A stretch of DNA of 34,779 nucleotides, taken from the NCBI GenBank assembly GCA_902586885.1, contig CACIJG010000004.1:77501-112279 (forward strand), in the 5' to 3' direction. The stretch is from an uncultured Alphaproteobacteria bacterium. GTDB taxonomy: Bacteria > Pseudomonadota > Alphaproteobacteria > Rhodobacterales > Rhodobacteraceae. Below the pieces are notes generated by a model. The model saw only the letters and a list, made by a program, of their open reading frames with translations, searched no databases and was not told the origin of the DNA. Below are positions 9,178 through 34,511 of the stretch, piece after piece. A program made the position numbers and the translations under genes. Within the stretch, counting starts at the first letter, position 1. The number at the start of each line of letters is the position of its first letter.

Positions 9178-9192
9178 TGAAACACAAAACTT

Positions 9193-9570: not shown

Positions 9571-9660
9571 TTTTTCTTCTTTTTTCAGGCTACTCTCCTA
9601 TAAGTTAATAGTTAGTTTGATGTGCTATTGGTATATTGAGTAGTCACCAAAAGATCAATT

Positions 9661-10599: not shown

Positions 10600-10627
10600 T
10601 AGCACCTCACTGCATGAGGGTCCTTTC

Positions 10628-11497: not shown

Positions 11498-11687
11498 GCA
11501 ACCCCACTTTTATAATTATTCTATCTTCAATACAAAATTTTATTAATATTTACCAGAGTTTGATTCATTGTTTAAAAAAATAAACTTCTTCGATTAGCTT
11601 TATCTATCTAAAGTATTTATTTTGATAATATCACTGTGTTAACTTATTAGCGTTTACTTAACTTCTTAACTACTTAGGACAATCGAG
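11498..11687. promoter_or_regulatory. Divergent control region between ilvE and the response regulator
   Basis: This AT-rich 190-bp gap must hold the promoters for both flanking genes. It contains three copies of TTAACT at 11639, 11658 and 11666, just upstream of the regulator start. It also has a short inverted repeat, GTTTA and TAAAC around 11571-11586. The TTAACT copies could be a regulator-binding site, but their spacing (19 and 8) is not the regular 10-11 bp usual for OmpR-type proteins. No strong sigma-70 promoter stands out. Confidence 0.3.
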
Positions 11688-12389: not shown

Positions 12390-12403
12390 TTAGTTTTTAG
12401 CTA

Positions 12404-12952: not shown

Positions 12953-13021
12953 TTTTTTAAATCAGTGATTCATTAAAACAAAGTATAACAAATTTCAAAA
13001 ATAATTTAAAACCATACAAAT

Positions 13022-20956: not shown

Positions 20957-21046
20957 GGACAGGTGGCCGAGTGGTTTAAGGCGCTCCCCTGCTAAGGGAG
21001 TGAGGGGGAAACTCCTCCGTGGGTTCGAATCCCATCCTGTCCGCCA
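20957..21046 (+). tRNA. tRNA-Ser(GCT)
   Basis: A complete 90-nt class II tRNA with encoded CCA. The acceptor stem GGACAGG pairs with CCTGTCC, followed by G and CCA. The anticodon stem CTCCC/GGGAG encloses CTGCTAA, giving anticodon GCT. A long variable arm (TGAGGGGGAAACTCCTCC) and T arm (TGGG/CCCA) follow. It reads AGC and AGT. Its 3' end is the apparent attachment site for the island downstream. Confidence 0.97.
21034..21046 (+). repeat. Attachment-site core within the tRNA-Ser 3' end
   Basis: ATCCTGTCCGCCA is the end of the T arm, the acceptor strand and CCA. It matches 12 of 13 bases at 30139-30151 and 11 of 11 of its last bases at 28076-28086, all in the same orientation. This is the pattern left when tyrosine integrases recombine into a tRNA 3' end. 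Confidence 0.6.
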
Positions 21047-21156
21047 GTATACATAACTATTTCATGTCACTACGTGTCAAACACCAGTGCACATTATAGT
21101 TTCAGTTGATTCGCCTCTCCTATTCCCATTCACTCTATGTCAGCCTATTCCACCTC

Positions 21157-21178
21157 ATTTGTGGGTAAATTTGTGGGT
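21157..21178 (+). repeat. Paired ATTTGTGGGT direct repeats, possible integrase arm sites
   Basis: ATTTGTGGGT occurs at 21157-21166 and again at 21169-21178, between the tRNA and the first integrase remnant. The same decamer opens both 87-bp repeats (22691-22700 and 28002-28011). Repeats placed between a core site and an integrase start are typical of arm-type binding sites. Confidence 0.4.
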
Positions 21179-21201
21179 GGAAAGAGAAAGGAGAGAGACC
21201 C

Positions 21202-21267
21202 ATGAAACTGACGCTCACAAAAATAAAAACACTCCCCATTGGCAAAAAAATCTTCATCAGTATATAG
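21202..21267 (+). pseudogene. Integrase N-terminal remnant next to tRNA-Ser
   Basis: After a good ribosome binding site (GGAGAG) an ATG opens a 21-codon frame, MKLTLTKIKTLPIGKK and a few more residues, then TAG. The opening MKLT...IKTL-P fits the first residues of arm-binding domains in tyrosine integrases, and its place directly downstream of a tRNA is the classic one. The rest of the gene is gone. The fragment is too short for certainty. Confidence 0.35.
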
Positions 21268-21488
21268 ACTCATGAGATTTGGGCATTAGAATTTAGATAT
21301 GAATATTTTTCCGTTTTTACGCTATCTGGTATGGTTATCAGATGAGATTTAAAATCTGTATTATCAACGTGAACATGCTATCCTGCAAAAATATCTTTTC
21401 TAGCAATACTTATATTAGAATTAGCTGCACAAGAACCTGAAATAAATAAAATATTTTCTAATATTTTTTGAGTTTTCTTTTGTAAAAA
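21268..21488. other. Intergenic stretch with possible decayed coding sequence
   Basis: No intact gene. On the minus strand, downstream of the hydratase stop, a frame reads protein-like (ILFISGSCAANSNISIARKD, then a TAG, then HVHVDNTDFKSHLITIPDS) and ends at a TGA at 21270. One internal stop in about 70 codons is uncommon in DNA this AT-rich. It may be the worn tail of a gene, but I do not recognise it. Confidence 0.2.
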
Positions 21489-22244
21489 TTATGCAGTTTT
21501 TTTACTCAGAAAATTTGCAAAAGCATCTTTAGCCTCATCCGAATTTAAGAGCTTCCATAGCATATCTCCTTCCTCTTTCATTCTCTGCTTCATTCCCTCT
21601 TTGATTTCAGACTTGAGAAATTTTTTTGATATCCTTAATGAATTTGGAGGTAAAGAAATCAGTTTATCACAAGTTGACTTTACTGCGTCTGATAATTCTG
21701 ATGCTTTAAAAATTCTAGTAACAATGCCCATATCTAAGGCATCCAATGCGTTAAAGTTGTCTCCTAGTAAAATCTTTTCAGCTGCCTTAAGATAACCTGA
21801 AATTCTTGGTAGAATAAGAGTTGAAGCAGCCTCGGGGCACAATCCCAACTTTACAAAAGGCAGGCTAAATTTTGTTTCCCTTTCAGCATATACAAAATCA
21901 CAATGCAGTAAACATGTCACCCCTACTCCGACTGCTAGCCCAGATACTTCAGCAACAATAGGCTTTGGAAAAGAACTAATTTCATACAAAAACCCCATAA
22001 CTTCTGTCTCATCACTAACTGTATTGGGATTTGCGTTTGCAAAAGAGGTTATATCGTTACCCGCAGAAAAAATACCCCCCTCACCACATAAATGAACTAC
22101 CTTTATGTCCTCTCTGTTCCGTGCTTCCTTAAAAGCATCATCCATAGTTTTATACATATTTCCCGTTAAAGAGTTTTTCTTATCCGGACGATTTATTGAA
22201 ACTTTTGCTACTCCAGCATCAAAGGAAACTAAAATATTTTCCAT
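21489..22244 (-). CDS. Enoyl-CoA hydratase/isomerase family protein
   Basis: A 251-residue crotonase-fold protein. The oxyanion-hole segments are GIFSAGNDI (57-65) and VSGLAVGVG (100-108). GLCPEAASTLILPRISG (134-150) supplies one acidic residue, E138, and resembles isomerase or PaaG-like members more than classical hydratases with two glutamates. It likely acts on an acyl-CoA, but reaction and substrate are not readable. The start is the ATG at 22244, 8 bases after a strong AAGGAG site. A GTG three codons upstream lies inside that site and is not the start. It is the main gene of the first island block. Confidence 0.87.
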   Translation of the reverse strand: MENILVSFDAGVAKVSINRPDKKNSLTGNMYKTMDDAFKEARNREDIKVVHLCGEGGIFSAGNDITSFANANPNTVSDETEVMGFLYEISSFPKPIVAEVSGLAVGVGVTCLLHCDFVYAERETKFSLPFVKLGLCPEAASTLILPRISGYLKAAEKILLGDNFNALDALDMGIVTRIFKASELSDAVKSTCDKLISLPPNSLRISKKFLKSEIKEGMKQRMKEEGDMLWKLLNSDEAKDAFANFLSKKTA

Positions 22245-22279
22245 AGATAACACTCCTTACAAGATAAATTGATTGGGTA

Positions 22280-22308
22280 AATGTACACCAAATATTTGAA
22301 GAGTTCAA
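22280..22308 (-). promoter_or_regulatory. Possible promoter of the enoyl-CoA hydratase-like gene
   Basis: On the minus strand TTGAAC (22308-22303), a 17-base spacer and TACATT (22285-22280) precede the start by 35 bases. The -35 is good and the -10 is moderate. Confidence 0.4.
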
Positions 22309-22445
22309 TTAATGTACTTATAGATACAAAGTAAGTCATGAGTAGGCACTTTCGCTTTAGTAAATTTACTCATCAAGAGAGGAAGAGAAATGCAGATAAG
22401 CTACTAAAAGAAACTTAACAATTGAATGCATTTTTTTTCGAACGT

Positions 22446-22586
22446 GTGTCTTGTACGATACATACATTAGTAAAACTAAAGTTTTTAAAGCTCACATTAC
22501 TCGGTGCTTTTGGAGCTGGATTATTAGCTACGCTTATTGCAAAAGAAATGCGTAAGAAGAAAAAAGCAGAAGATATTGACGATTAA
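22446..22586 (+). CDS. Possible small single-pass membrane protein
   Basis: A 46-codon frame from a GTG (or 54 codons from a TTG at 22422). It has one hydrophobic helix, LTLLGAFGAGLLATLIA, followed by a basic stretch (KEMRKKKKAE) and an acidic end (DIDD). This is the usual layout of tiny membrane proteins with the N-terminus out. No clear ribosome binding site is present. A 26-codon frame at 22338-22418 (MSRHFRFSKFTH, lysine- and arginine-rich) is in the same reading frame, with a TAA and one codon between, so the pair could also be one gene broken by a stop. Unrecognised. Confidence 0.3.
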   Translation: MSCTIHTLVKLKFLKLTLLGAFGAGLLATLIAKEMRKKKKAEDIDD

Positions 22587-22679
22587 GTAAAAATGTTCGC
22601 ATGCTTCAGCATTTGATGCTATCTGGTAGTTTTTTTATTGAGACTTTGCACGAGGTACAATATGCATATTGACAAACAA

Positions 22680-22774
22680 TTTGTATGAGTATTTGTGGGT
22701 AGAAACTCTATCTAATAAAATATTTTTTACACAACAAAGGCTTACAGAGAAGTGTGGTAGAGGGCCACTCCACC
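22680..22774 (+). repeat. Island junction repeat, copy A (87-bp repeat plus core)
   Basis: The first 87 bases, from TTTGTATGAGTATTTGTGGG to GTGGTAGAGGGCC, align without gaps to 27991-28077, with 71 of 87 identities by my count. It includes the decamer ATTTGTGGGT and the block ACAAAGGCTTACAGAG. The end, GGGCCACTCCACC (22762-22774), is identical to 26543-26555. I read it as the right end of a lost element. The rest of 22587-22863 shows no gene. Confidence 0.6.
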
Positions 22775-22863
22775 TCAAAAAGTCCTTAAGCATCTTGATC
22801 TATTCACAAATAGTTTCATACTAGAAAATTAGAGATTTGAGGCAATTATATAGGCAAAACAAA

Positions 22864-24180
22864 ATGTCAGAATTTTTAGAATTAAAACTTGAGAATGCTT
22901 CTTTGGATGAGGTCGCGGAGTTGGCACTAAAGTCAGTTGAGCCAAATTCGTCAGAAAACAAAAGTGTAAATGTGAAAGATGTTTCTGGTAATAGCGGTGC
23001 TAAAACGTATATCTGTTCAATTGACGACATTCCAAAGTGCATTGTCAAAGTTAGCAGTTCCAAAAGCATAATGAGTTCACATCCAATAACTCAAAAGAGA
23101 GTATCGCTCGCAACTGAAGTTCTTCGATCTCAAAATCTTGCTCCCCCAATTATATTAAAAGGAATTGATTTCCATATTGAGCGTTCAGCTGGAGTTTCTG
23201 TAATGCAGGATTTCTTTCATTTTAATGAAGATTTAGCACCACCCGATAAAGTAGCTCAAGTTTTAGCAAAATTGCACTCAGCACCAATTAAATGGTATGA
23301 TAAATTGAAAGCTGAATTTTTAGACGGCGATAAATTTTTGTCTTCAGCATTACATTCGGTCCCACTTCACGCTCCATTTTGGTGTCTACCTTGGTCAGGA
23401 ATTGATACTAAAATGCCAGTCCTTGGAGTAGGTAATCCAGACCCCAAAATTGCAAAAAAGGTTTTTGACCTTGGTGTACGAACTGGAGTTTATGAAAAAG
23501 TTATACAGTGTGAGGCTTTTTATCCTATTTCGGAAGCCGCAAAACGGCAGGTAGTCATTCACAATGATTTCAAGCCTGATAACATATTATATGATCCTGA
23601 TACCAAAGAGCTCACAGTAATAGACTATGATCTTGTGCAAGTTGGGGCTGCTGTAATGGATTTTGGATTGCCATACATGATGTGGCTAGGATCAAGGTTT
23701 ACCGACGTTACGTATAGGAGAGATTTTATAAAGTCATATCTGCATCATTCTAGCCTTCAAACAGACGAAAAAAGTATTAAAAATATGATGCTTGATTGTG
23801 AAATTAATACTATCGTTGCATTTCCTGGTCTATTGGCAAATATCTATGATGCAGAAATTCCACTATTACGCGGATTTGATCATCCCACAGCCAAGTCAGG
23901 TTATATAGCCCAATCTTCTGAAGCTTCTCCAACAGGATTAGAAATCGTAGACTTATTGGCTGAAGCTGTTTCAAAAGTAAGATCTAATGCTGATTTAATT
24001 ATTTCGAGTCTTGAAGAGGGAATTGTGGTAACAATTTTCAAAAATAAGGGCTTAGGATCAGATTTGCTATATTCTTGGCTTAAGGAAATGCAAAAAAATA
24101 ATATGCTCCGTCTTTTTGGAATTGCTGAGAGTGATGGAGCTGAACTATTTGTTTCAGATCACGCTAAAAAGAAAAAGTAA
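22864..24180 (+). CDS. Choline/aminoglycoside kinase-like phosphotransferase
   Basis: A 438-residue protein with the eukaryotic-like kinase fold of the APH/choline kinase group. Visible parts are a glycine-containing nucleotide loop (SGNSGAKTYIC, 41-51), a likely ATP lysine in CIVKV (K62), the catalytic loop VIHNDFKPDNILYD (D235, N240) and the metal aspartate in VIDYD (D254). The loop HNDFKPDN followed by IDYD resembles choline/ethanolamine kinases and homoserine-kinase-like enzymes. The tail beyond about residue 340 is unassigned. The ATG at 22864 is preferred; an upstream TTG at 22837 is weak. The gene converges with the methyltransferase gene. The substrate is unknown, and I do not read it as a resistance gene. 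Confidence 0.75.
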   Translation: MSEFLELKLENASLDEVAELALKSVEPNSSENKSVNVKDVSGNSGAKTYICSIDDIPKCIVKVSSSKSIMSSHPITQKRVSLATEVLRSQNLAPPIILKGIDFHIERSAGVSVMQDFFHFNEDLAPPDKVAQVLAKLHSAPIKWYDKLKAEFLDGDKFLSSALHSVPLHAPFWCLPWSGIDTKMPVLGVGNPDPKIAKKVFDLGVRTGVYEKVIQCEAFYPISEAAKRQVVIHNDFKPDNILYDPDTKELTVIDYDLVQVGAAVMDFGLPYMMWLGSRFTDVTYRRDFIKSYLHHSSLQTDEKSIKNMMLDCEINTIVAFPGLLANIYDAEIPLLRGFDHPTAKSGYIAQSSEASPTGLEIVDLLAEAVSKVRSNADLIISSLEEGIVVTIFKNKGLGSDLLYSWLKEMQKNNMLRLFGIAESDGAELFVSDHAKKKK

Positions 24181-24196
24181 ACGAATATCTATTCGT
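24181..24196. terminator. Weak bidirectional hairpin between convergent genes
   Basis: ACGAATATCTATTCGT directly after the kinase stop is a near-perfect palindrome (six or seven pairs, tiny loop). Only short A/T runs flank it, so termination strength is doubtful. It lies between two convergent genes. Confidence 0.3.
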
Positions 24197-24233
24197 AAAT
24201 AAAGTTTAAAAGTGGCATCACAACTCAACCGAA

Positions 24234-25082
24234 TTACTTAGTTGCTGATACATAATTAAGACATGCCTTATAAGTGATTTCTTTGCCAATTTGTCGTTTT
24301 TCACATAGTTGAATGATTTCATTTTTTATCATTGACATTTTTTCACTTGATAAATTTTCTTCAGATAAAATTTTTGCTCTTGGTCCAATCCCCATGAGAA
24401 GTTCTGCATCTTGCTCAGCGCTATCTTTCGTTGAGATAGATGTATAAACCTTATCAATGTTTATATTTTTAAATCCAGCAGATTGTAAGACTTCATTAAC
24501 ATATTCACGGTCGCTGAATGCAAAAGGGCCTGGGTCCTTTGTTACCTCTGGAAGAACTTTCTGAGTATATTTTGTGATAACATCCATACCTTCAGTTATA
24601 AACTCATTCTCCATCATATTTGTCCAACACACGAAATTTAGAGAACCATTTGTCTGCATTGAGCCGAGAATATTTTTGAAAGCTTCTGAGGGATTTTCAA
24701 AAAACATTACACCAAATCGAGATATAACTTTGTCAAAATAATTTCCATCAAAAGAATAATTTTGCGCATCACAATGAACAAATTTCATTGCATCAATATT
24801 TGAGAATTTACTTTTTGCGTGATTTAACAGGGTATGCGAAATATCTGCTCCTACCACATGACCCCCATCGCCCAATAATTTTGATACTCGAAAAGTTGTG
24901 TCACCACCTCCACAACCAATATCTAGAACTTTGTCCGATTCTTTTAGCTTTGCTCTCAAAAAAAGTTCATTGGTTAATATTGATAATCGTTCATTTAATG
25001 CATCCTCATTTTTCACCCACTTAGGTCCAGATTTTTCGTTCCAGTATTCGGATTGTTCTACATTTATAATTTTTTGTTTCAT
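24234..25082 (-). CDS. Class I SAM-dependent methyltransferase (UbiE/Methyltransf_11 type)
   Basis: The 282-residue protein has a Rossmann methyltransferase core. Motif I is VLDIGCGGGDTT (52-63), then HVVGADIS, then FVHCDAQNYSF, and the post-motif FDKVISRFGVMFFENP. This pattern fits small-molecule methylases of the UbiE-like group. The N-terminal YWNEKSGPKWVKNEDALNER block is frequent in stand-alone members. A strong AAGGAG site precedes the ATG. The acceptor is unknown. Neighbours are a kinase on one side and a small barrel protein and thioesterase on the other, which suggests small-molecule metabolism. Confidence 0.85.
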   Translation of the reverse strand: MKQKIINVEQSEYWNEKSGPKWVKNEDALNERLSILTNELFLRAKLKESDKVLDIGCGGGDTTFRVSKLLGDGGHVVGADISHTLLNHAKSKFSNIDAMKFVHCDAQNYSFDGNYFDKVISRFGVMFFENPSEAFKNILGSMQTNGSLNFVCWTNMMENEFITEGMDVITKYTQKVLPEVTKDPGPFAFSDREYVNEVLQSAGFKNINIDKVYTSISTKDSAEQDAELLMGIGPRAKILSEENLSSEKMSMIKNEIIQLCEKRQIGKEITYKACLNYVSATK

Positions 25083-25127
25083 ATTATCTCCTTGAAAAAT
25101 TGCATTTTTATCAGAAAATTGGAGGCA

Positions 25128-25436
25128 TTATTTACTTTGCTCAAACCTATCAGGCTTTACATAAGCTTGAACAACTTCCCCTTCTAAAAACCATTGATCC
25201 TTTACCTTGGCCCCATGCTTTTCAAAATTCTTATCTCTTTGAATTTTAGCCTCATCAGCTTTTTCTTGATTTGGAAAAACTGAAATAGCAATCACTGAGG
25301 TAGGAGTAGTTCTTATCCGTAATAGTATTTCAGCATCTGGGAACGTTTTTGCAGATTCCTTATTATATTGCTCTGATATTTCAAGAAATTCCTCTTCAGA
25401 TCTCCATTCCACCATATTGATCCTTGCAATGCTCAT
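25128..25436 (-). CDS. Small hypothetical protein, possibly dimeric alpha/beta barrel
   Basis: A 102-residue soluble protein: MSIARINMVEWRSEEEFLEI opens it, then LLRIRTTPTSVIAISVFPNQEKADEAKIQRDK and a charged C-terminus, in shorter segments. The strand-helix-strand alternation and the pattern 'AISVFPNQEKADEA' resemble ABM/EthD-like ferredoxin-fold barrels, but I see no diagnostic motif. An AAGGGT site lies before the ATG. It is 45 bases upstream of the methyltransferase gene in the same direction, so they probably form a two-gene unit. Confidence 0.6.
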   Translation of the reverse strand: MSIARINMVEWRSEEEFLEISEQYNKESAKTFPDAEILLRIRTTPTSVIAISVFPNQEKADEAKIQRDKNFEKHGAKVKDQWFLEGEVVQAYVKPDRFEQSK

Positions 25437-25568
25437 TAGTTTTACCCTTTCAATTATTTAATCAACTCATTTTAGTTTTTTTTTGAGGCTTTAAATTTAG
25501 TTCAATATTAAAACTTTATTTCCTTAATCCAAAAATGTATATTTATAACAAATTTTTTTTTAAGAGAT

Positions 25569-25985
25569 TTGGCTAAAGAATATAAATATAAAATAGATAA
25601 ATCGTTTATTGATTTTAATGGTCACCTAGCGGAATTTGGTTATTACTATTACGGCGTTCAAGGGTTAAGAAATCTTTGTGAAGATAGGGGCTGCTCTCCA
25701 GAACTTTACAAAGAATTGAAGATTGGTCCTATTACCTTTCAAACAACTGTATCCTTTAAAAAGGAAGTTCGCGAAAACTCTGTAATTGTCGTAAATCCTA
25801 GAATTACTTCTATATCAGAAGATTGCAAAAAGTGGTCTAGCCAATCTGATATTCTGAATGCAAACCAGGACCTTTGCGCTTCAATCGTAAGTAACGGAGC
25901 TTTCATGGACCACACAAGCAGAAAGGTGGTTTCACCACCAAAGACATTACAAGACAAATGGAGATTATTATTAAAGGTGGATTAA
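25569..25985 (+). CDS. Hotdog-fold thioesterase-like protein
   Basis: A 138-residue single-hotdog protein of the 4HBT/YbgC group. The N-terminal SFIDFNGHLAEFGYYYY (12-28) corresponds to the conserved D-x-N-GH-N active-site segment at the start of the central helix, with D15 as likely catalytic residue. PITFQTTVSFKKEVRENSVIVV is the following strand pair. It probably hydrolyses an acyl-CoA; related thioesterases act on betainyl- or carnitine-derived CoA esters, but the substrate is not readable. The start is a TTG with a weak AAGAG site; no in-frame ATG is available. It is divergent from the small protein gene. Confidence 0.72.
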   Translation: MAKEYKYKIDKSFIDFNGHLAEFGYYYYGVQGLRNLCEDRGCSPELYKELKIGPITFQTTVSFKKEVRENSVIVVNPRITSISEDCKKWSSQSDILNANQDLCASIVSNGAFMDHTSRKVVSPPKTLQDKWRLLLKVD

Positions 25986-26022
25986 CCAATGGTTAAGTTT
26001 TTATAAATCTGGATTTTAGAGA

Positions 26023-26526
26023 TTGTTCGTTTACTTGGATACTGAAACAACAGGAAGAGGCATTGCTTGGGGCGATAAGATTGTTGAGATATCAATAGTT
26101 GGAGAAAACGGTTTAGTACTTTTAGATACTTTAGTTGATCCAGAACGCGATATACCCTGGCAAGTCACCCAGATACATGGCATTACGAATGACATGTGTG
26201 AAGGGTACCCAACTATTGAAGAATTACTTCCTGAAATCAATGATATAGTAAGAGGCAAAAAGGTCGTAATCTATAACTCTAGTTATGATATTCAATTTTT
26301 TCCAGATAGGCTTGGGCAAGCGGATGAAGTTTTGTGCGCCATGAGAACTTATGCAAGATTTAAAGAAAAGGGTGATAGAAAATGGGTGAAATTATCTCAA
26401 GCAGCAGAGGAAGTTGGACACGTTTGGGATGGAAATGCTCATAGGTCTCTTCCTGACACGCAGGCATGTAGAAGTGTGTGGGTTTGGCTTCTAAAAAATA
26501 ATAGAGAATTTAATGAAACCTTCTAA
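26023..26526 (+). CDS. DEDDh-family 3'-5' exonuclease
   Basis: The 167-residue stand-alone exonuclease domain has all DEDDh residues: D6 and E8 in YLDTETTG, D89 in NSSYDIQFF, H140 and D145 in HRSLPDTQA. IHGITNDM matches the DnaQ/RNase T type. It could trim DNA or RNA; no polymerase or other domain is fused. The start is a TTG (MFVYLDTETTG) 37 bases after the thioesterase stop, preceded by a weak AGAG. It ends just before a junction repeat. Confidence 0.85.
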   Translation: MFVYLDTETTGRGIAWGDKIVEISIVGENGLVLLDTLVDPERDIPWQVTQIHGITNDMCEGYPTIEELLPEINDIVRGKKVVIYNSSYDIQFFPDRLGQADEVLCAMRTYARFKEKGDRKWVKLSQAAEEVGHVWDGNAHRSLPDTQACRSVWVWLLKNNREFNETF

Positions 26527-26542
26527 AACTGGATATGGCGGT

Positions 26543-26555
26543 GGGCCACTCCACC
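26543..26555 (+). repeat. Island junction core, copy C
   Basis: GGGCCACTCCACC is identical to the end of junction copy A at 22762-22774, and the 14 bases before the shared end still match partly (TATGGCGGTGGGCC against TGTGGTAGAGGGCC). It lies 17 bases after the exonuclease stop. I read it as a third worn right end. The 87-bp arm region is not present here. Confidence 0.4.
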
Positions 26556-26639
26556 AAACCAATTTACATAAAAAAATTATTTATTTAATTGATAAGAGTT
26601 CGATGTGGTCACTACTTGCGATCCTATATTAATTTTTTA

Positions 26640-26669
26640 TTGCTAAAAATATTTTTTACTTTCTATAAT
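26640..26669 (+). promoter_or_regulatory. Promoter of the adenylate cyclase gene
   Basis: TTGCTA (26640-26645), an 18-base spacer and a perfect TATAAT (26664-26669) lie 28 bases before the ATG at 26698. The cyclase therefore has its own promoter inside the island. Confidence 0.5.
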
Positions 26670-26697
26670 AAGTTCATAAAATGAATGGATTGGCATT

Positions 26698-27984
26698 ATG
26701 GAAAATACAGAAATTGAAAGAAAAAGACACGTTGAGGGACTAAGACTCGCAGTTTGGTTGTCAGCTGGTCTAAATTTTTTTGTATTACTTTCGTCTATAT
26801 TAGGTAGTGGGGGTTGGACAAGTGAGTTAGCCAGTAAGTTATGGCTCATTAATATCATTGTTGGGACCACTATTTACCTCTCGGTTGCAATTTTTCTCAA
26901 TAATAAAAACTATATCTATCTCTTAACAATTGTTGTTTGTTGGTTTGTTGTTGGTCCCTGGATTAGGGCATCCGCTTTTGGTTTGGACGATCAAGTAGTG
27001 GATTACTTCGGTACCTATGGAGGTAGACTTATTGATTGGAGATTTATGGTTACCACGTATTCAATGATATTAATCGTACTTTTGGGAAGGTTTTATCTCA
27101 CGATATCTTTTGTCATTTATTATTTGGCTTTAAATGCATTTTTTTCTTCTAGCATTATATTACATCCCGAAACTTATTTTACTTATGATCATAGTAAAAT
27201 AAGCTCAGACCTATTTGCAATGCATGGGGGAATTTACCAACAAAATGTTACGGTTGTAATTATTAGTGCCTTGGCTCTGATTGGGATAGCTTGGAGAATG
27301 CAAAAAAATCTCAAAGATGCTTCTCTCCATGAGAGATCAAATTCCATTCTAGGAAGATATTTTTCGCCAGAAGTTAGAGAAGAGATCGAAAAAAATAAGG
27401 CAACGTTAGACCTCGATAATGAAAAAGAACAAAAGATAGCAGTTATGTTCACTGATATTTCTGGTTTTACAAAGTTATCCGAAGGAATGAAACCCAAAGA
27501 CGTTTTAGATTTATTATCGGAGTATCAAACTAAGATGGTGGCAGCCATTTTTCATAATGGAGGAACAGTTGATAAGTTTATAGGAGATAGTGTGATGGCT
27601 ACCTTTGGTACACCCTTCTCAAAAGGAAACGATTCTCAAAATGCGTTAAACTGTTTAAGACAAATGCAAATTTCAATGCGTGAGTGGGCTCAAGAAAGAC
27701 AAGAAAAGGGACTACCAGTTGTAAAACATAGGATAGGGGTTCATTTCGGAGAGTGCTTTGTTGGAAATGTAGGTAGCGAGGATAGGTTTGAGTATACGGT
27801 GATTGGTGACACAGTAAATGTTGCAAGTAGAATTTGCGAAGGATGCAAAGATGTTGGCGCTGATGTTCTAATTTCAGAGGAAGTGATGAGCAGACTTAGT
27901 GAGAACTTAACATCGGAAGAGGTAGTTGACTTTTCCGTAAGGGGTAGAAGTAAGAAAATAAAATTACATAAAATTATGGTTTAA
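26698..27984 (+). CDS. Membrane-bound class IIIb adenylate cyclase
   Basis: Makes cAMP at the inner membrane. In the 428-residue protein about six hydrophobic segments fill residues 17-200, then a linker (GRYFSPEVREEIE, common before such domains) leads to the catalytic domain (about 245-428). The metal aspartates are D253 (FTDISGFT) and D297 (FIGDSVMATFG). K293 and T367 (FEYTVIGDTVNVASR) are the purine-selecting pair; Thr instead of Asp marks class IIIb. N374 and R378 are the transition-state residues. So the active site looks complete and adenine-specific. The sensory role of the membrane part is unknown. No cAMP receptor gene is visible in the window. Confidence 0.9.
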   Translation: MENTEIERKRHVEGLRLAVWLSAGLNFFVLLSSILGSGGWTSELASKLWLINIIVGTTIYLSVAIFLNNKNYIYLLTIVVCWFVVGPWIRASAFGLDDQVVDYFGTYGGRLIDWRFMVTTYSMILIVLLGRFYLTISFVIYYLALNAFFSSSIILHPETYFTYDHSKISSDLFAMHGGIYQQNVTVVIISALALIGIAWRMQKNLKDASLHERSNSILGRYFSPEVREEIEKNKATLDLDNEKEQKIAVMFTDISGFTKLSEGMKPKDVLDLLSEYQTKMVAAIFHNGGTVDKFIGDSVMATFGTPFSKGNDSQNALNCLRQMQISMREWAQERQEKGLPVVKHRIGVHFGECFVGNVGSEDRFEYTVIGDTVNVASRICEGCKDVGADVLISEEVMSRLSENLTSEEVVDFSVRGRSKKIKLHKIMV

Positions 27985-27990
27985 CGATTA

Positions 27991-28086
27991 TTTGTATGAA
28001 TATTTGTGGGTAGAGAGATTGTCTGTTAAAATACTATCAAGATAACAAAGGCTTACAGAGGAGTGTGATAGAGGGCCTGTCCGCCA
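27991..28086 (+). repeat. Island junction repeat, copy B (87-bp repeat plus tRNA-Ser end)
   Basis: The 87 bases from TTTGTATGAATATTTGTGGG to GTGATAGAGGGCC align without gaps to copy A. Here the end reads CCTGTCCGCCA (28076-28086), identical to the last 11 bases of tRNA-Ser. This is the clearest link between the 87-bp repeat and the tRNA attachment site. It begins 6 bases after the cyclase stop. Confidence 0.65.
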
Positions 28087-28306
28087 CACCATCTCAATTA
28101 CATATTATTAATCAATACCTTAGGTTTTTGGAGGCTAATCCATCCCCCAATCGGTATGATTTCAGAGTATAATTAATGTTATCTTCCTCTAATAAAGAGG
28201 GGGTGGGTAAAAACTCTTACCCTTCTTAAAGCAATGGATAGTGGTTACAGATTTTTGGTTTTTTTCAAAGTGAATAAAGGTTAATTTCGTCGTGCATATT
28301 AGATAT
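28087..28306. other. Intergenic stretch with two adjacent small hairpins
   Basis: No gene seen. CCTCT-AATAA-AGAGG (28186-28200) and GGGTAA-AAACTC-TTACCC (28205-28222) can form two short stems only 4 bases apart. The second is followed by TTCTT on the plus strand. They could terminate cyclase transcription or be remnants. The rest is AT-rich with no recognisable content. Confidence 0.3.
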
Positions 28307-29881
28307 TCATATACCTAGAATTTTGACCGCTACTTGTTTGCTTGAAAAGGAGACCGCAATAACTTCATACCCAAATCCATTCAATTCACAAAATTCTATC
28401 AAAGCCTTATACTCGTCCTCTTCCCAAGTTGGATTTGTAAAAAATTCATCAAAAACCAATATTGTGTGCTCATCAATTATAACTTTAGAATAATTCAATG
28501 CACAGATTGTGGATGAATAAAGGTCAGCATCGAAGTTAATTAAAGATGCTAAAGGTCTATCTTTTGAAAAAAAATTAGGTAACGATTCCTCGAATTTTCC
28601 GACAATAAATTCTCCCCCTTCTATTTTTGGGATATTACCCTCACTAGAATAAGTACCTGCCTTCTCCTTATGCCAGTTCTCTGGAAGACCTGTAAAAGTA
28701 TCAAAACCAAAGCCTTTTTTAAATGTCTTGATAAGGTACTTGAATGCTGTGCCCCTCCAAACACCATATTCATAAAATGGCCTTTCTACTTTACTATTTC
28801 TTGTAATATAGTCAAAAAATGCCCACCTATGAAAAAACAGCTTGGGAGTAGTAGGCAGGTTTAACACCCAATTAATTGAGCGGGCTAAACCGTGCTCTTT
28901 GTAACCCTCTTTTTTTAATAGACTTAAATCATTGTTTTTGTTTTCGTAGGCTTTGAGAACAATTGAAGTTAAAATTGCTTCTTTATAATTAGGGTTTTTT
29001 TCTAAGCAGAGATCTATCCATGCCTTAGCCTCTTCTATTGAGTAAGAGGTATTATATAAATTCCAATATACTTGATAAAAAGTAGGCTTTATTTTGAGAG
29101 CATTTTTGTAACTATCTACACCTTTTGCCATTTCCCCAATTTCTGTGTAAGCTAGACCTAGATTATTGTAAGCGTCAGCAAAGCTTGGATTAATTTCAAT
29201 TGCTCTTTTATAATTTTCTATGGCAGATTGTAATTCTCCACTTATTGCTAGGGTTATTCCAATATTGTAATAGATGGAAGCGTTTTCTTTTTCCATTTCA
29301 AGTGCTCTATTAAAGCTCGCGAGTGCAGCCGGAATGTCGCCATTCAATCTAAGTGCGTTTCCTAAATTCATATAGGTCGATGGATCATCCGATTTAATTT
29401 CCAGCGCTTTATTCAATATGTCGATTGCCTCCTTGAAATCATGGTTATATGTAAGGGCAACGCCCAAATTATTAAGCACATCAGCATTATTAGGTTTGAT
29501 TTCTAGAGCTTTTTTAAAACTTTTTATGGCTATTTTGTAATCTTTGAGTGCGTAATTAGAAAGACCGAAAATATTGTGCAAGCTCACACTGGAAGGATAA
29601 TCTTCTAACAAGTTTCTTGCGCTTTTTATACATTCAGTATAGCGGCCTTTATCGTGAAGGTTGCCTAATGCTTTTGACACAGGTGGGGGAGGGTCAGCGA
29701 GCTGCTTTATCCCTACCCTTGCCTTGATATTTCCTGGATACTTTTGAACAATATCCAGATATATGGATCTCGCTTCTTTGATTTCTTGTGCATTTTCCTT
29801 TTTTTTAGCTAGCCGAAGAGCTTTATCTAAATTCATTTCATCTAAAATACTTTTTTTTTCCTCCATATTAACTTCTTTCAT
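28307..29881 (-). CDS. TPR-repeat protein fused to a TylF/MycF-like methyltransferase domain
   Basis: In the 524-residue protein the N-terminal half has about six clear tetratricopeptide repeats (about 65-268; for example ADVLNNLGVAL, STYMNLGNALRLNG, ADAYNNLGLAYTEIGE) after a charged helix. A linker follows, then a C-terminal domain (about 345-524) of the macrocin O-methyltransferase kind: EYGVWRGT (371-378) as the SAM loop, FDTFTGLPENW (393-403), metal-binding DADLYSST (451-458) and a later acidic DEF (478-480). It may methylate a sugar or surface glycan, with the repeats as scaffold; this is inference. The start may be M1 or M6. Its 5' end overlaps an integrase remnant by 14 bases. Confidence 0.82.
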   Translation of the reverse strand: MKEVNMEEKKSILDEMNLDKALRLAKKKENAQEIKEARSIYLDIVQKYPGNIKARVGIKQLADPPPPVSKALGNLHDKGRYTECIKSARNLLEDYPSSVSLHNIFGLSNYALKDYKIAIKSFKKALEIKPNNADVLNNLGVALTYNHDFKEAIDILNKALEIKSDDPSTYMNLGNALRLNGDIPAALASFNRALEMEKENASIYYNIGITLAISGELQSAIENYKRAIEINPSFADAYNNLGLAYTEIGEMAKGVDSYKNALKIKPTFYQVYWNLYNTSYSIEEAKAWIDLCLEKNPNYKEAILTSIVLKAYENKNNDLSLLKKEGYKEHGLARSINWVLNLPTTPKLFFHRWAFFDYITRNSKVERPFYEYGVWRGTAFKYLIKTFKKGFGFDTFTGLPENWHKEKAGTYSSEGNIPKIEGGEFIVGKFEESLPNFFSKDRPLASLINFDADLYSSTICALNYSKVIIDEHTILVFDEFFTNPTWEEDEYKALIEFCELNGFGYEVIAVSFSSKQVAVKILGI

Positions 29882-30011
29882 AAACCATTGTTTTAACCAA
29901 TTCTTTGCCCTTGCCTTTGTAGACCCTTAAGAAGAGACCATTTGGGTGATAGTGTTTCCCAGGCTTCTTAACTGTTGTAACAAAAGTCGTGCTGTAAGTT
30001 TCTTCATTCAT
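29868..30011 (-). pseudogene. Integrase N-terminal remnant at the right end of the island
   Basis: A 47-codon frame starting MNEETYSTTFVTTVKKPGK and continuing HYHPNGLFLRVYKGKGK before a TAA. The VKKPGK-HPNGLFLRV pattern matches the arm-type DNA-binding domain at the N-terminus of P4-like tyrosine integrases (DUF4102-like), which normally run to about 400 residues. Everything downstream is lost, replaced by the TPR gene. It reads leftward from the right-hand core at 30139-30151, 128 bases away, as an integrase next to its attachment site would. Confidence 0.5.
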
Positions 30012-30120
30012 TCCCAATTGAACATGGAATTTAGTAAATATTGTTGAATTTAATTGAACTTACTATAGCACATAACCCATCGAATCTTATATGTTAATTA
30101 TGTGTTTTTGAGCATTATTG

Positions 30121-30151
30121 GAAGTGTGTAATGGGGATATCCAGTCCGCCA
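30121..30151 (+). repeat. Right boundary repeat of the island, copy D
   Basis: GAAGTGTG (30121-30128) matches copy A, and ATCCAGTCCGCCA (30139-30151) matches 12 of the last 13 bases of tRNA-Ser. The interval between these two parts is 4 bases longer than in copy B. It lies 11 bases from the end of the rhomboid gene and is the last such repeat in the window. Confidence 0.55.
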
Positions 30152-30161
30152 TCAATTTAAA

Positions 30162-30815
30162 TTAGGACTTACCCTCTCTAATCACAAAAATCAATAGAAA
30201 TCCAGAAATAGCCCCTCCCAAATGAGCCTGCCAAGCAATTTCAGCTCCGAAAAGTGACGGCCCCCATAAAACCAGAGGAATATGAATTAAAGTCATTACT
30301 AATGCTATGTTGACAATAGGTTGGATAGACACAGAATTATTTAATCTAATGACTAAGTCTTTCCCAAAGAAAAATGCTAATAATCCGTATACAGAACTAC
30401 TTGCGCCAACAAGTGGGCCAGTCTCTGTTGGCTCAAGAATTTGAAAAAAGAGTGCACCTGAAACTGCCGCTAAAAAAAATATAGTAAGAAATTTTAAAAG
30501 ACCTAAATGTTCCTCAATATGTTTTCCCACAGCTACAAGAACACCCACATTTAATACCATGTGAAAAAAATCACCATGAAGGAATGCGTGACTAATAAAG
30601 CGAAAATAATAATCTCCAAAGTAAAGTTCTGGAAATTGAGATAGAAAAGGTTTTGGGACAAATGAAAAATAAATAAATAAAGTTCGTCGAGGTTCAAGCC
30701 CAAATATCTGTAAGTAAACCTCTATAACAACCATTATACACCCAATAATTAATACGCCTGGGGGTATATTGTTAAATATCGGCTCTCTTTTTCTTGGTTT
30801 GATTGTGGCCATCAT
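30162..30815 (-). CDS. Rhomboid-family intramembrane serine protease
   Basis: The 217-residue protein has six hydrophobic segments. The catalytic serine is S139 in GASSSVYG and the catalytic histidine is H198 in WQAHLGGAISG. The HAFLHGDFFHMVLN block (76-89) is the conserved second segment with the usual histidines and asparagine. The glycine after the serine in the common GASG motif is serine here, a change seen in some bacterial rhomboids. The substrate is unknown. It starts in an AT-rich gap and is divergent from ridA; its end abuts the island boundary. Confidence 0.9.
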   Translation of the reverse strand: MMATIKPRKREPIFNNIPPGVLIIGCIMVVIEVYLQIFGLEPRRTLFIYFSFVPKPFLSQFPELYFGDYYFRFISHAFLHGDFFHMVLNVGVLVAVGKHIEEHLGLLKFLTIFFLAAVSGALFFQILEPTETGPLVGASSSVYGLLAFFFGKDLVIRLNNSVSIQPIVNIALVMTLIHIPLVLWGPSLFGAEIAWQAHLGGAISGFLLIFVIREGKS

Positions 30816-30972
30816 TTCTATCTGAGATTATACACATAAATTCTTTTTTCTAATTAAGAAAATTTTTTTTATTATGCAAAGTCTAAAAAAAGAAAAATCT
30901 TATTTTGGGACAGGTACCTTGCAAATTTTAATTGAAGTTTGTGAGCAATTGAATTTTCTGATAAAATATCTT

Positions 30973-31359
30973 ATGGATATAGAGCACTTAACTTTTTCTA
31001 AAGGCCCCAAAAAGGTAGCCCCTTTTAGCCATGCTGTAAGAGCTGGTGAGTTTTTATTTATAACCGGACAGATGCCTACGCTTAAAAATGATAGCACCCA
31101 ACTTGTTCAAGGCGGCATAGAAGCGCAAACCCATCAAGTCATGAAAAACCTAATTGAGGTATTAAGTGCTGCTGGTTCATCGATAGATAAGGTAATTTTT
31201 GCAAGAGTTTACCTGGTCAACTTTGGTGATTTTGATAAGATGAATAAAGTATATGCTTCCTACTTTAAAACAGAAAAATTACCCGCAAGAACTTGCATTG
31301 GGGTAACTGGATTAGCTGTAGGAGCGTCAGTAGAAATAGATTTAATTGCTTCCCGCTAA
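30973..31359 (+). CDS. ridA: RidA family enamine/imine deaminase
   Basis: The YjgF/RidA proteins hydrolyse reactive enamines released by PLP enzymes such as the IlvE and threonine dehydratase routes. Counting from the ATG at 30973 the protein has 128 residues, the usual length. The core contains PFSHAVRAGEFLFITGQMP, VFARVYL-like IFARVYLVNF and the substrate arginine R106 in LPARTCIGV, ending GASVEIDLIA. The frame is open back to an ATG at 30874, but the added 33 residues have no family counterpart. The stop overlaps that of the GST-like gene by 4 bases (CTAA). Confidence 0.88.
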   Translation: MDIEHLTFSKGPKKVAPFSHAVRAGEFLFITGQMPTLKNDSTQLVQGGIEAQTHQVMKNLIEVLSAAGSSIDKVIFARVYLVNFGDFDKMNKVYASYFKTEKLPARTCIGVTGLAVGASVEIDLIASR

Positions 31360-32393
31360 TTGACTAAGGTCTCGCAACCGGTCCCATCTATAATCTTGTT
31401 CACCTCAGTTTTCTCTGACTTAGTCAAAGATTCGTACTCTTCTCTTAACCAAGTTAAACATTTTACCTGATAAGGAAATGTTCTTTGGCTCCAAATCAGC
31501 CCATCCAGTTTTGTCTCCCAGCTTTCTTCTCCTTTAAGAAATGCTCTTTCGTTTTCTAACATGGTCGGAACATACGTTGCCCCGATTTCCTTTAAAAGCA
31601 AATTAATTGTGTTTGGAATTTCCCCTAACTCTAACCAATCGCTTTCAGATGGATCGAGGCCTGAAAGATCTTCGGTTCTGTTAACCCAAGCTACAGTTCT
31701 CATAGATATGTTCTGAGTAATTGCTCTAGGCGTAGGATCTGCTCCTACAAGTTGGCATAGCTGACCAAAAAAAGAAAAATCTGACGAGGAAGGCCTCTTG
31801 CCGAGTAGAAACGGATATTTAGACAAATGCTTTTCCATTATTACCAAAAACCGCTTAAAACTTTTGTCAATGAGCGGAGCCGTAATTTTGTTTGATCCTA
31901 CAACCCAAACTCTACCAATTTGACGCTCTGTTATTTCTTTTTTCATTTTATCAAAAACATCGTCTGAAACCACTGGTTGTGATGTCAAAGGTAATAATGT
32001 TCCTGCATTTTCAATATCTTGTTTGTCATGCCATCGATAATGAAACATAAATTTAGTACCCCATTCATCTCCAAAATCCTCTAATAGATAATTAATGAAC
32101 GCCAGCACTGGATTATTAGGAATAGTACTTCTTTTCTGGAAAGCGGTTTCCAACATTCTGATTATTGGGGTTGAATCGGTTACCGCCTTTGCTTTTTCAC
32201 CAGCAGATTTAATGATGAAAGTTGGATGTAGTACTGGTTTAGGTTTTTCTATTTTCATTTGATCCAGAATAGATCCAGGATTACCCCAAATGATTTTATA
32301 TGGGATCAACCTGTACCTTAAAAGTGATACCATTTTCCTAGTATAGGGTGACATTGTACTGCCGATTAGTTTTATTGGTAATTCAGCTGTCAA
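31356..32393 (-). CDS. Glutathione S-transferase-like protein (extended)
   Basis: The 345-residue protein starts with a thioredoxin-like domain (IKLIGSTMSPYTRKMVSLLRY..., where S14 or S15 stands at the usual active-site position) and a GST C-terminal helical domain around KYPFLLGKRPSSSDFSFFGQL. Ordinary GSTs have about 200-230 residues; this one carries about 100 extra C-terminal residues with no recognisable motif. Similar long GST-like proteins occur in marine alphaproteobacteria without known substrates. It converges with ridA and starts 42 bases downstream of the helicase stop. Confidence 0.75.
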   Translation of the reverse strand: MTAELPIKLIGSTMSPYTRKMVSLLRYRLIPYKIIWGNPGSILDQMKIEKPKPVLHPTFIIKSAGEKAKAVTDSTPIIRMLETAFQKRSTIPNNPVLAFINYLLEDFGDEWGTKFMFHYRWHDKQDIENAGTLLPLTSQPVVSDDVFDKMKKEITERQIGRVWVVGSNKITAPLIDKSFKRFLVIMEKHLSKYPFLLGKRPSSSDFSFFGQLCQLVGADPTPRAITQNISMRTVAWVNRTEDLSGLDPSESDWLELGEIPNTINLLLKEIGATYVPTMLENERAFLKGEESWETKLDGLIWSQRTFPYQVKCLTWLREEYESLTKSEKTEVNKIIDGTGCETLVN

Positions 32394-32435
32394 TTTATGA
32401 CCTTAGAAAATAAAATATTATTTTTAGAATGACGA

Positions 32436-34511
32436 TTAAGAAAACAAATCATCAGCCGGTTTCTCAAGTTTAGAAAAAAGATTTGTATAGCGTAAGTTAA
32501 GATATACTTTTTTTAAAGCTTCTTTGAAAACTCTTTTACTCCCGATTAGACATACCTTCTGTTTTCCTCTTGTTATCGCTGTATAAATTAATTTTCTTGT
32601 AAGCATTATTCTATGATCATCAACTATAGGCATAACCACATTTGAGTACTCAGATCCCTGACTTTTGTGCACTGTAATCGCATATGCTAGATCAATAATA
32701 TCTGTTCTTTTCTCGTGCACTAGCTTTGGCTTTCCATCAAACTCGATTTGTATATTCTTTCCAATTTTATTTATAATATAACCTATGTCACCGTTTCTAA
32801 TGTCCAACTCGTAGTCATTAGTCGTACAGATTACTTTGTCATTAATAAAAAAGTTTACCTCCATATCATTCTCTAACTTTGAAAAAACTTTTCTCGAGTT
32901 TGGATTATATTTTTTTTGCAAAATAGTATTCAAATTCATTAATCCTGCAGGAAATCTGCGCATAGGCGAAAGAATTTGTGTCTTTTCCAAGTCAATTCTA
33001 TCTTTTCCATTTTCTGTTAACTCATCGAGAACTTTTGTGATTTCTTGAACGACACCTTTCTTTTCAATATCTATAAAGGAAAAATCTGAAGTCTTTACAT
33101 CATTTGAATAATAAATCATTTCCCCACGATTGACTGCTTTCGCAACAGTTGAGATATTACTCTTACTTTCCTGTCTAAATTGTTGAGTTAGCCTGCTGAC
33201 CATTATTTTTTTTGACCTTATCAAGTCCAAAAAAGGCTGGCCTGGACCCACTGGAGGCAGTTGATCGACATCTCCAATTAGAATCAACTGAGCTCCATCA
33301 GGAACTAATTTTACTAGATCCCTAAACAAGTTTATGTCAATCATAGAAGACTCATCCACTATTAATGCATCAATTTCAGTCATGTTTGCAGAAGCCTCAA
33401 TCGTAGCTATTAGCATATGAATAGTAGAAGGCTTAAAAGTTTTTAGAGCAGGATTTTCTGCTATTCTTTTTGCCGCTCGACCAGTTGGTGCACAAATTCT
33501 TATTTTTTTTTCATATTTCTTTACTAAAACTTGAGCTATTCCTTCAATAATCCTTGTTTTACCTGTCCCTGGTCCTCCTGTAATTATCGAAATAGAAGAG
33601 CCTATAGAACTTTGAATAGCCTCTACCTGTTCGTCAGACAGAGGACTTTTAACATTTTTATTTGCAGTAAATTTTTTTCCTTCAATTGATTTGAACCTAG
33701 AATCAATACGACCTAAATGTTTCAAAATTTCTAAGTCTCTTTCCTCTGCTTCCTTTGTCTCTAAAAAATGTTTTCCGTTGAATTCAAATTTATGAAAAAA
33801 ATGTGGAGCGTTATTAATAGCCTCCTCGATCTTATAATTCTCAGTGTTTGTCATTTCCTGCACTCTAGAGAAAACTTTTTCTGATGGTCCGCAGGTATTT
33901 CCTCTTTCCTGTTCACTTTTCATTAAAACATGCCTTGAAGCTGCAACTAATTTTTGTTCCTCGCTGACATTTATTCTGAGCTTGTCAATTATTTCCTCAA
34001 TACTTTCAAAATTAAGTCTCGGTATTTTTTGAAGTAACATGTAAGGATCTTTGTGAACCTCACTAAAGAACTGATTTCCTATTTCTTCTCTCACAAATTT
34101 TTTTTGCGTGAACGAGAACCCTATTTGTGAAAAAAAAACTTCGAAGCCGGAGTTATCAGAGACTATGTCCCATCCTGAGATTAAAATTGCGAGGATATTT
34201 TTTGATGTTTTTTCTTCAATAGCAACAAAATTTCTTTTTTTAAGCAAAAAAATAACTTCTATACCGAAATCCTTAATTATTTTTTCAGCTATCTTGGGAC
34301 CCAAGCCCTTGAATTCTCTCCCTGTAAAAAACTTCTTTAAACCATAAAGCGGTTCATTATCCAATATCACGCCCCCATCAATTGGTTTATCCTGACTATC
34401 TAAAGGAATGAAATAGTAGCCCTCTCGTCCAACAGAAATATAATTCGCTATATTATCGTTACAATTTATCGATTTCCTAATACCATTAAAATGACTAAAA
34501 ATTCCAATCAA
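32436..34511 (-). CDS. recD2: RecD2-type superfamily 1B DNA helicase
   Basis: The 691-residue protein has an N-terminal OB-like segment, a helix-hairpin-helix (FKGLGPKIAEKIIKDFG, 67-83), and the two RecA-like domains: Walker A GGPGTGKT (312-319), Walker B IVDESS (384-389), GDVDQLPPVGPGQPF (413-427), QQFRQES, and the C-terminal AITVHKSQGSEY of UvrD_C_2. There is no RecB or RecC partner in the window; RecD2 works alone as a 5'-3' helicase. The start is a TTG at 34511 preceded by GGGGAAAAGC. The next in-frame ATG is far inside the protein. A small ORF overlaps the start. Confidence 0.9.
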   Translation of the reverse strand: MIGIFSHFNGIRKSINCNDNIANYISVGREGYYFIPLDSQDKPIDGGVILDNEPLYGLKKFFTGREFKGLGPKIAEKIIKDFGIEVIFLLKKRNFVAIEEKTSKNILAILISGWDIVSDNSGFEVFFSQIGFSFTQKKFVREEIGNQFFSEVHKDPYMLLQKIPRLNFESIEEIIDKLRINVSEEQKLVAASRHVLMKSEQERGNTCGPSEKVFSRVQEMTNTENYKIEEAINNAPHFFHKFEFNGKHFLETKEAEERDLEILKHLGRIDSRFKSIEGKKFTANKNVKSPLSDEQVEAIQSSIGSSISIITGGPGTGKTRIIEGIAQVLVKKYEKKIRICAPTGRAAKRIAENPALKTFKPSTIHMLIATIEASANMTEIDALIVDESSMIDINLFRDLVKLVPDGAQLILIGDVDQLPPVGPGQPFLDLIRSKKIMVSRLTQQFRQESKSNISTVAKAVNRGEMIYYSNDVKTSDFSFIDIEKKGVVQEITKVLDELTENGKDRIDLEKTQILSPMRRFPAGLMNLNTILQKKYNPNSRKVFSKLENDMEVNFFINDKVICTTNDYELDIRNGDIGYIINKIGKNIQIEFDGKPKLVHEKRTDIIDLAYAITVHKSQGSEYSNVVMPIVDDHRIMLTRKLIYTAITRGKQKVCLIGSKRVFKEALKKVYLNLRYTNLFSKLEKPADDLFS

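Follow-up and report, generated by a model that had tools for sequence, protein, structure and literature searches.

A tRNA-Ser(GCT) gene as the probable entry site of an integron-like cassette array in a genus of uncultured Rhodobacteraceae

The stretch of DNA analysed here, referred to as the window, consists of 34,779 nucleotides (C4:77501-112279) of a 1.84-Mb draft genome, 76% complete, of an uncultured alphaproteobacterium of the family Rhodobacteraceae, and contains a tRNA-Ser(GCT) gene followed by an island of repeats and cargo genes. Comparison within a set of 22 genomes of the genus (completeness 58-91%; designated by G and a number) makes it quite probable that cassettes enter at this tRNA gene to form an array common to the genus, of which the window holds a partly decayed copy, and we are similarly inclined to regard the array as tRNA-anchored, integron-like and served by satellite-type integrases. 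As far as the sequences tell, a cassette consists of short cargo, often one or two genes, followed by its own 3′ module of ~100 bp that comprises arm-like sites and a core. The host group is made up of uncultured, probably marine, bacteria; the AG- isolate names, which we take to be those of single-cell genomes from the sea, are used for marine genomes in one literature passage. The anchor of the array is the following:

20957-21046, + strand: tRNA-Ser(GCT) gene (ARAGORN, Rfam), with its 3′ end, CCTGTCCGCCA, at 21036-21046

All 90 bases of this gene are identical in 17 of the 22 genus genomes, the host's own being counted.

Gain and loss of whole segments at the tRNA gene

An empty site is found in G015, where the tRNA is joined directly to the thioesterase, peptidase, kinase and methyltransferase genes. 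With respect to this arrangement G006, G013 and G019 carry insertions of 22.2, 12.3 and 9.8 kb, respectively, which extend precisely from the tRNA end to a core, the flanks being 90-93% identical. The same tRNA-to-core picture emerges when G008 is compared with G019 (6.7 kb), G003 and G016 with G006 (8.8 and 8.6 kb) and G007 and G013 with G017 (2.2 and 2.6 kb); throughout these comparisons the flanks are 85-99.7% identical. The units that relatives lack between tRNA and core thus range from 2 to 22 kb. As to the window, positions 26557-30144 are absent in G021, its closest relative, in which the flanking 3.9 kb (96%) and 0.7 kb (86%) meet at the core, and positions 21047-28076 are absent in G017 and G019. 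These two comparisons bear out the expectation, formulated in a first-pass annotation made from the letters of the window alone, that relatives should lack whole blocks between the junctions that it listed; its proposal that the island had grown by repeated insertion at the tRNA also stands, the listed sites marking where whole segments come or go in relatives. Enlargement of the island through insertion at tRNA-Ser(GCT) is supported by these alignments.

The indels were compiled in 56 rows, 17 of which were dropped (14 against G014 and three against G008c); twelve of the 14 G014 rows are repeats of one private deletion of 967 bp in the kinase gene and the other two are larger gaps. This deletion (L167, G014:C6) lies inside the gene, away from any core, and leaves the flanks intact. 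Among the 39 rows kept, ten have a core within 15 bp of each end, six combine a core with a module, eight have one such end and 15 neither; both ends are therefore at a core or module in 16 of 39 cases, to be compared with the 0.9% of island positions that lie within 15 bp of a core.

Two further arrangements were observed. An insertion of 4.3 kb at the tRNA that bears a carbamoyltransferase gene (L103, G011:C28, oriented positions 1938-6225) repeats the tRNA end in full over 26 bp; as the core of the other units measures only 11 bp, another integrase may be involved here. A solo remnant of ~215 bp (L101, G008:C19, oriented positions 6837-7052), similar to a miniature element, consists, in this order, of a core, the left end of the integrase element with arm-like sites, the right part of a module and a second core.

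The att module and the two classes of core

In a 29-copy alignment the attachment (att) module, ~100 bp in length, is composed of two arm-like sites (consensus TTTGTATGAATATTTGTGGGTA), a partly conserved spacer of ~30 bp, AACAAAGGCTTACAGAGGAGTGTGGYAGAGGG and finally the core, which is related to the 3′ end of tRNA-Ser(GCT). In the genus relatives it is encountered repeatedly between one cargo gene and the next. In view of their position and of the arm-binding domain of the integrase, the arm-like sites may well be integrase arm sites. The motif ATTTGTGGGTA is repeated also ahead of the integrase start at the tRNA and occurs six times in the host genome, three of them within the island, as opposed to zero occurrences of the reversed control.

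A profile search in which up to 150 first-look candidates per genome were scored, with profiles derived from the very copies that they then detect, located the module at 67 places in 17 of the 22 genus genomes, G015 and G020 having one weak place each. In the 148 other genera of the family, each represented by one genome and searched with stricter filters that lose weak matches, no module was found, and an exact-pattern scan of the GTDB genome collection yielded 12 stretches, all from uncultured Alphaproteobacteria with AG- isolate names and some marked as metagenome-assembled genomes. After orientation, the 63 modules detected at E 1e-3 in 28 stretches all lie on a single strand; the clean figure is that of the tRNA-bearing stretches, with 35 of 35 modules on the tRNA strand, because the stretches without tRNA were oriented by the modules themselves.

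Inside the window the tRNA 3′ end recurs as an exact copy at 28076-28086 and with one mismatch at 30141-30151. In all, four matches to it with at most one mismatch are present, one being the 3′ end of the tRNA itself and one (20953, − strand) its acceptor stem, compared with a mean of 0.13, and never four, in 100 shuffles. The 13-mer GGGCCACTCCACC is found in the window only at 22762 and 26543 (shuffle mean 0.00), and the repeat pair 22679-22777 / 27990-28088 extends over 99 bp with 80% identity. All the repeats that the first-pass annotation had placed in the island are thus present, the copies of the tRNA end and of the 13-mer in numbers above shuffle expectation. That annotation had also recommended searching for the repeat elsewhere: the host genome holds just these two copies, both in the island (E 2.1e-18 for the second), which score E 6.7e-25 and 3.6e-27 with the module profile, both being among its source sequences. 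Its description of an 87-bp repeat as a worn attachment junction holds as regards the junction, but wear is not the whole matter, the repeat being a conserved genus-wide module of ~100 bp. An imperfect palindrome of the kind TTTGCACNNNGTGCAA, possibly a terminator or a packaging signal, precedes several modules (e.g., window positions 22643-22665).

Two classes of core can be distinguished. A tRNA-type core is carried by 17 of the 18 classified modules whose following left end abuts the tRNA in some genome and by 7 of the 34 remaining modules, three of the seven (G018_m6865, G009_m2773 and G008b_m4206) being internal cores that the parser took as tRNA-type, an error that runs against the two-class claim; three of the 55 modules remained without a class and do not enter these counts, and the tRNA-abutting left ends were listed by hand. 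Most arrays consist of the tRNA, a series of internal-class cores and a tRNA-class core, with extra inner tRNA-class cores in G018 and G009 and none of this class in G021, and all ten two-sided exact indels span the distance from the tRNA to a tRNA-class core. The alignments accordingly present the units between tRNA-class cores as entities present or absent as wholes, within which the cassettes are separated by internal-class cores. Identity of the overlap region could sort the cores into two compatibility classes, of which one would serve entry at the tRNA and the other the junctions between cassettes.

Integrases and cassettes of the relatives

In relatives the tRNA is adjoined by elements encoding a predicted tyrosine integrase of the Arm-DNA-bind_3 type, presumably P4-type, with the Pfam domains Arm-DNA-bind_3, Phage_int_M and Phage_integrase, and a neighbouring gene that matches terminase small subunit (TerS) families. 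Close relatives of the G016 integrase (at least 88% identity) occur in G003 (interrupted by an internal stop), G005, G008, G011 (fragmented), G012 and G018; less similar ones are located elsewhere, several adjoining other tRNA-Ser genes, and some integrase relative at E<=1e-20 is present in 16 of the 22 genus genomes. When the arrays are cut at the tRNA end and at the module ends, 45 core-to-core segments are obtained. Six of them have an integrase match of more than 250 residues, and all six begin at the tRNA and have a TerS match; in the other 39 no integrase is matched at E<=1e-5, a TerS-like match being nevertheless present in three, and 25 of these 39 hold at most two open reading frames (ORFs) of at least 90 amino acids, as counted by eye.

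The integrase-less cassettes recur across genomes with closely similar lengths (1518-1528 bp in five genomes, 1484-1487 bp in three, and the pairs 665/669, 1177/1180 and 1529/1535 bp), having changed neighbours between arrays. The identity of the cassette is tracked by its downstream module (0 of 2000 permutations as high) and not by its upstream module (1130 of 2000).

Two cases illustrate how segments may be gained or lost. The rhomboid cassette of G006 and G013 is missing in G007 and G017, and in the module that remains there the sequence passes from one parental type to the other within 19 shared bp located about 40-60 bp ahead of the core; this switch within the module body indicates that the cassette was lost by homologous recombination. 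The other case is a 2.57-kb segment with two ORFs and no integrase match, found at the tRNA in G013 and absent in G017, the right flank being 98.9% identical. Its ends share just the tRNA-like core, which is short for homologous recombination, so that site-specific movement in trans would be the simplest reading, and we infer that integrase-less cassettes are mobilised in this manner.

The proposed mechanism and its alternatives

According to the mechanism that we favor, the integrase would bind the arm-like sites of the module and recombine the core with the tRNA 3′ end, new arrivals thereby entering beside the tRNA. Cassettes without integrase would be moved in trans, and cassettes may also be lost by homologous recombination between modules, of which one case was seen; TerS would point to packaging by a helper phage.

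A number of results weigh against this cassette-array reading. Neither an excised circle nor a packaged copy nor any activity was observed, and the sole crossover that could be placed lies in the shared module body and represents homologous recombination. The host genome, at its 76% completeness, yielded no related integrase at E<=1e-20, while the viral_contigs collection yielded one remote integrase relative (35%), no TerS relative and no module match, the last being weak evidence against helper-phage packaging. Neither end is at a listed core in any of the 17 dropped indel rows or in 15 of the 39 kept, among which the G021 case falls because its cores, not being part of full modules, were off the list; moreover, the rows share ancestry and the genomes are incomplete, so that the counts are not independent. 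To the right of the junction G017 and G019 match the window for only ~180 bp (72-77%), after which the cargo differs. Finally, 24 of 46 segments have no counterpart of like composition, and length varies by more than 1 kb in two of the eight clusters of cassettes, as it does for one member of a third.

Tandem accretion, whereby complete integrative elements entered successively at the tRNA and decayed in place to attR remnants and leftover genes with nothing moving in trans, would account for the two integrase stubs of the window, for the integrase-bearing elements at the same tRNA in relatives and for the ~215-bp remnant of G008 with its core, left end and module, and deserves real, if limited, credence. 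It does not fit as well the recurrence of integrase-less cassettes of near-equal length in different genomes, nor the precise gain or loss at the tRNA of the integrase-less segment of 2.57 kb, and the internal cores form a class of their own instead of being decayed tRNA cores. One might also envisage that the module is a dispersed repeat located between genes, be it similar to repetitive extragenic palindromes (REP), to miniature inverted-repeat transposable elements (MITE) or to a terminator, and that the shuffling is due to homologous recombination alone, as in the cassette loss with the crossover inside the module body. Such a repeat appears improbable: both copies of the host genome are in this island, the copies share their orientation, end in the tRNA 3′ sequence or in its relative and delimit insertions at the tRNA where no more than ~11 bp are shared, and they have no conserved fold, the consensus folding with -3.3 kcal/mol and compensating changes being found in 0 of 10 pairs. 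The same fold value, without a compensating pair, and the tRNA-derived core speak against a true chromosomal integron (IntI plus attC cassettes), whose integrase at the anchor end and uniformly oriented cassettes with a 3′ recombination site would otherwise resemble what is found here; IntI is not known to have an arm-binding domain, whereas the present integrase carries Arm-DNA-bind_3 and Phage_int_M and is not of the IntI type, which renders this identification highly improbable.

Relation to known systems

Among known systems, the cassette array has its relatives in the ssrA islands of Dehalococcoides, in additive islands and in tycheposons. The islands at ssrA in Dehalococcoides are tandem, located downstream of one RNA gene and delimited by short copies of the 3′ end of that gene; an integration module is present in 16 and missing in 15, the latter having been suggested to be cis-mobilizable (PMC3146451). 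As far as the passages on these islands go, the likeness lies in the tandem arrangement at one RNA gene with and without integration modules, whereas they have serine recombinases as opposed to the tyrosine integrase and TerS of the present array, and the passages contain no shared ~100-bp 3′ module with two core classes such as is found here (PMC3146451).

Additive flexible genomic islands of marine and freshwater bacteria, streamlined genomes included, receive cassettes by site-directed recombination, tRNA genes and repeats of the tRNA 3′ end being described in the passages of two of three papers (PMC10872708, PMC7771536, PMC5217437). Three of their features are found in the present case, namely segments with copies of the tRNA 3′ end at their borders, a clean empty site and att-flanked segments without integrase; beyond the tRNA repeat reported in those passages, the present array also links integrase, arm-like sites, 3′ module and cassette identity. 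Tycheposons, virion-encapsidated integrative mobile elements (VEIMEs) and other satellites are mentioned in parts of PMC11389934 and PMC10803314, and tycheposons are touched on in PMC12416821. To the extent that these sources describe them, tycheposons, VEIMEs, phage-inducible chromosomal islands (PICI) and phage-inducible chromosomal minimalist islands (PICMI) resemble the array in being small recombinase-bearing integrative elements of marine bacteria, TerS being present in the array as well; like tycheposons, the elements are inserted at a tRNA gene and a tyrosine recombinase is present, and the PICI-like pair of integrase and TerS is found in relatives only. Unlike these satellites, the integrase and TerS unit is only the tRNA-proximal part of the array, 39 of 45 segments having no integrase match.

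With integrons and clusters of attC sites lacking integron integrases (CALINs), in the passages of PMC11389934, the array shares the anchor site, the integrase at the anchor and the oriented cassettes, each with a 3′ site; indeed, genes with their own 3′ site, uniform orientation and changed order are all observed. It differs from them in the integrase family, which is not of the IntI type, in the tRNA gene that acts as anchor and in the fold of the site, no attC-like hairpin having been found. It is possible, and we advance it tentatively, that integron-like gene capture arose here independently, with a tRNA anchor, a satellite-borne arm-binding tyrosine integrase and double-stranded arm and core sites in two compatibility classes (tRNA entry and cassette-to-cassette). 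Should internal-class cores recombine together, integron-like cassette shuffling would have arisen with a different integrase family. A search of the literature by title and opening of the abstract, with most subscription papers outside its coverage, retrieved no description of this array or module.

The gain and loss of single genes in small-genome uncultured bacteria have so far been mostly obscure; as one can point here to the unit of cargo and 3′ module, to the site of entry, to a likely enzyme and to an empty site, the process becomes testable gene by gene. The first-pass annotation had seen in the island an unusual way of storing accessory genes by repeated insertion; the insertion is supported, but the deeper pattern, in which each cassette has a 3′ module of its own and the cores fall into two classes, had escaped it.

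The window copy

Downstream of the tRNA, the window contains the following features:

21047-21256, + strand: left end of an IntA-type element, with the arm-like direct repeat ATTTGTGGGTAAATTTGTGGGTG at 21157-21179
21202-21252, + strand: IntA stub, the first 17 residues and then stops (tblastn, 94% to the first 17 amino acids of the G016 integrase, E 4.7e-4)
21475-22776: enoyl-CoA hydratase cassette with 3′ module, gene at 21489-22253 on the − strand (Pfam ECH_1)
22677-22774, + strand: att module 1, arm-like sites and core GGGCCACTCCACC of the internal class (nhmmer E 6.7e-25)
22777-26542, mixed strands: second block, for the most part former right chromosomal flank, with 25114-25546 cassette-derived
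22837-24180, + strand: kinase (APH), second block
24234-25082, − strand: methyltransferase, second block
25128-25436, − strand: "barrel" protein, no Pfam match, 90% to cassettes of G005 and G018
25569-25985, + strand: thioesterase (4HBT_2), second block
26023-26526, + strand: exonuclease (RNase_T), second block
26543-26555, + strand: internal-class core GGGCCACTCCACC without arm-like sites (13/13 match), left edge of the cyclase cassette
26556-28086, + strand: adenylate/guanylate cyclase cassette with 3′ module, gene at 26698-27984 (Guanylate_cyc)
27990-28086, + strand: att module 2, arm-like sites and core CCTGTCCGCCA of the tRNA class (nhmmer E 3.6e-27)
28087-28256, no strand assigned: conserved left end (left-end group 0), directly behind a core at 10 places in 9 genomes, the host's own counted
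28307-29881, − strand: TPR protein with a putative methyltransferase half, cargo of the fourth block (Pfam TPR families)
29892-30023, − strand: IntB stub, N-terminal 44 codons of a second integrase (tblastn, 43% to G009 IntB, E 1.7e-7)
30141-30151, + strand: degenerate core CCAGTCCGCCA, right edge of the fourth block and insertion boundary with respect to G021
30162-30815, − strand: rhomboid protease, right flank, outside the array; its nearest genus relatives (G021 apart) are beside RidA elsewhere

The IntA left end adjoins the tRNA also in G003, G005, G008, G012, G016 and G018, and positions 21021-21256 are 93% identical to G011 6200-6434. The hydratase cassette is 87-88% identical to stretches at other array positions in G016, G019 and G005, and 26543-28086 is 87% identical to a core-to-core segment of G011:C20, the core at 26543-26555 being an insertion boundary with respect to G021. 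The sequence behind module 2 directly follows the tRNA in G017 and G019 for ~180 bp, and the conserved left end that begins there is 72-80% identical over about 180-310 bp among its occurrences.

The second block, which the first-pass annotation had counted as inserted cargo, is instead mainly the old right-hand chromosomal flank, because three of its genes lie past the last module or the tRNA in 11 other genomes; only the "barrel" part is cassette-derived. Indeed, the thioesterase, kinase and methyltransferase genes occupy this place in those genomes, mostly with 82-87% identity, and no further core was found downstream within the stretch examined, the G005 contig ending in the kinase; the whole block is 96% identical to G021. 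Among the gene labels, Pfam backs ECH_1, APH, methyltransferase, 4HBT_2, RNase_T, Guanylate_cyc and TPR. The "barrel" ORF is in place without a Pfam match for its label, and only the TPR half of the presumed TPR-methyltransferase was recognized, the methyltransferase half having no match at E<=0.001.

The supposed loss of integrases is reflected in the IntA and IntB stubs, and no TerS match was found in the window; this loss is not general, relatives keeping an open integrase and TerS at the same tRNA. Given that both integrases are stubs, that one boundary has lost its arm-like sites and that the right flank seems to be rearranged, the window copy is probably immobile unless integrase is supplied. 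As to this flank, the rhomboid-RidA-GST-RecD region (30162-34511) is unlike what flanks this tRNA in the other genomes of the genus; rhomboid, GST and RecD are present in G021 as well, RidA being unmatched in the G021 stretch examined, and the location elsewhere of the nearest relatives of the rhomboid gene indicates that the flank was probably rearranged in the lineage of the window and G021.

Other tRNA genes of the host genome offer two side observations. At tRNA-Ser(TGA) (L206, G000:C3:50400-66000, positions 1602-1680) the gene is followed by two copies of the arm-like GGTCCCCCAAT, and no second tRNA end with up to 6 mismatches in 23 bases was found within 15.6 kb. At tRNA-Thr(TGT) (L205, G000:C8:20500-36500, positions 1581-13814) there is a 12-kb element with a perfect 28-bp repeat of the tRNA end, paired copies of GGTAGACCA in the same orientation near both ends and, following the tRNA, an open frame (1674-2810) about as long as an integrase gene.

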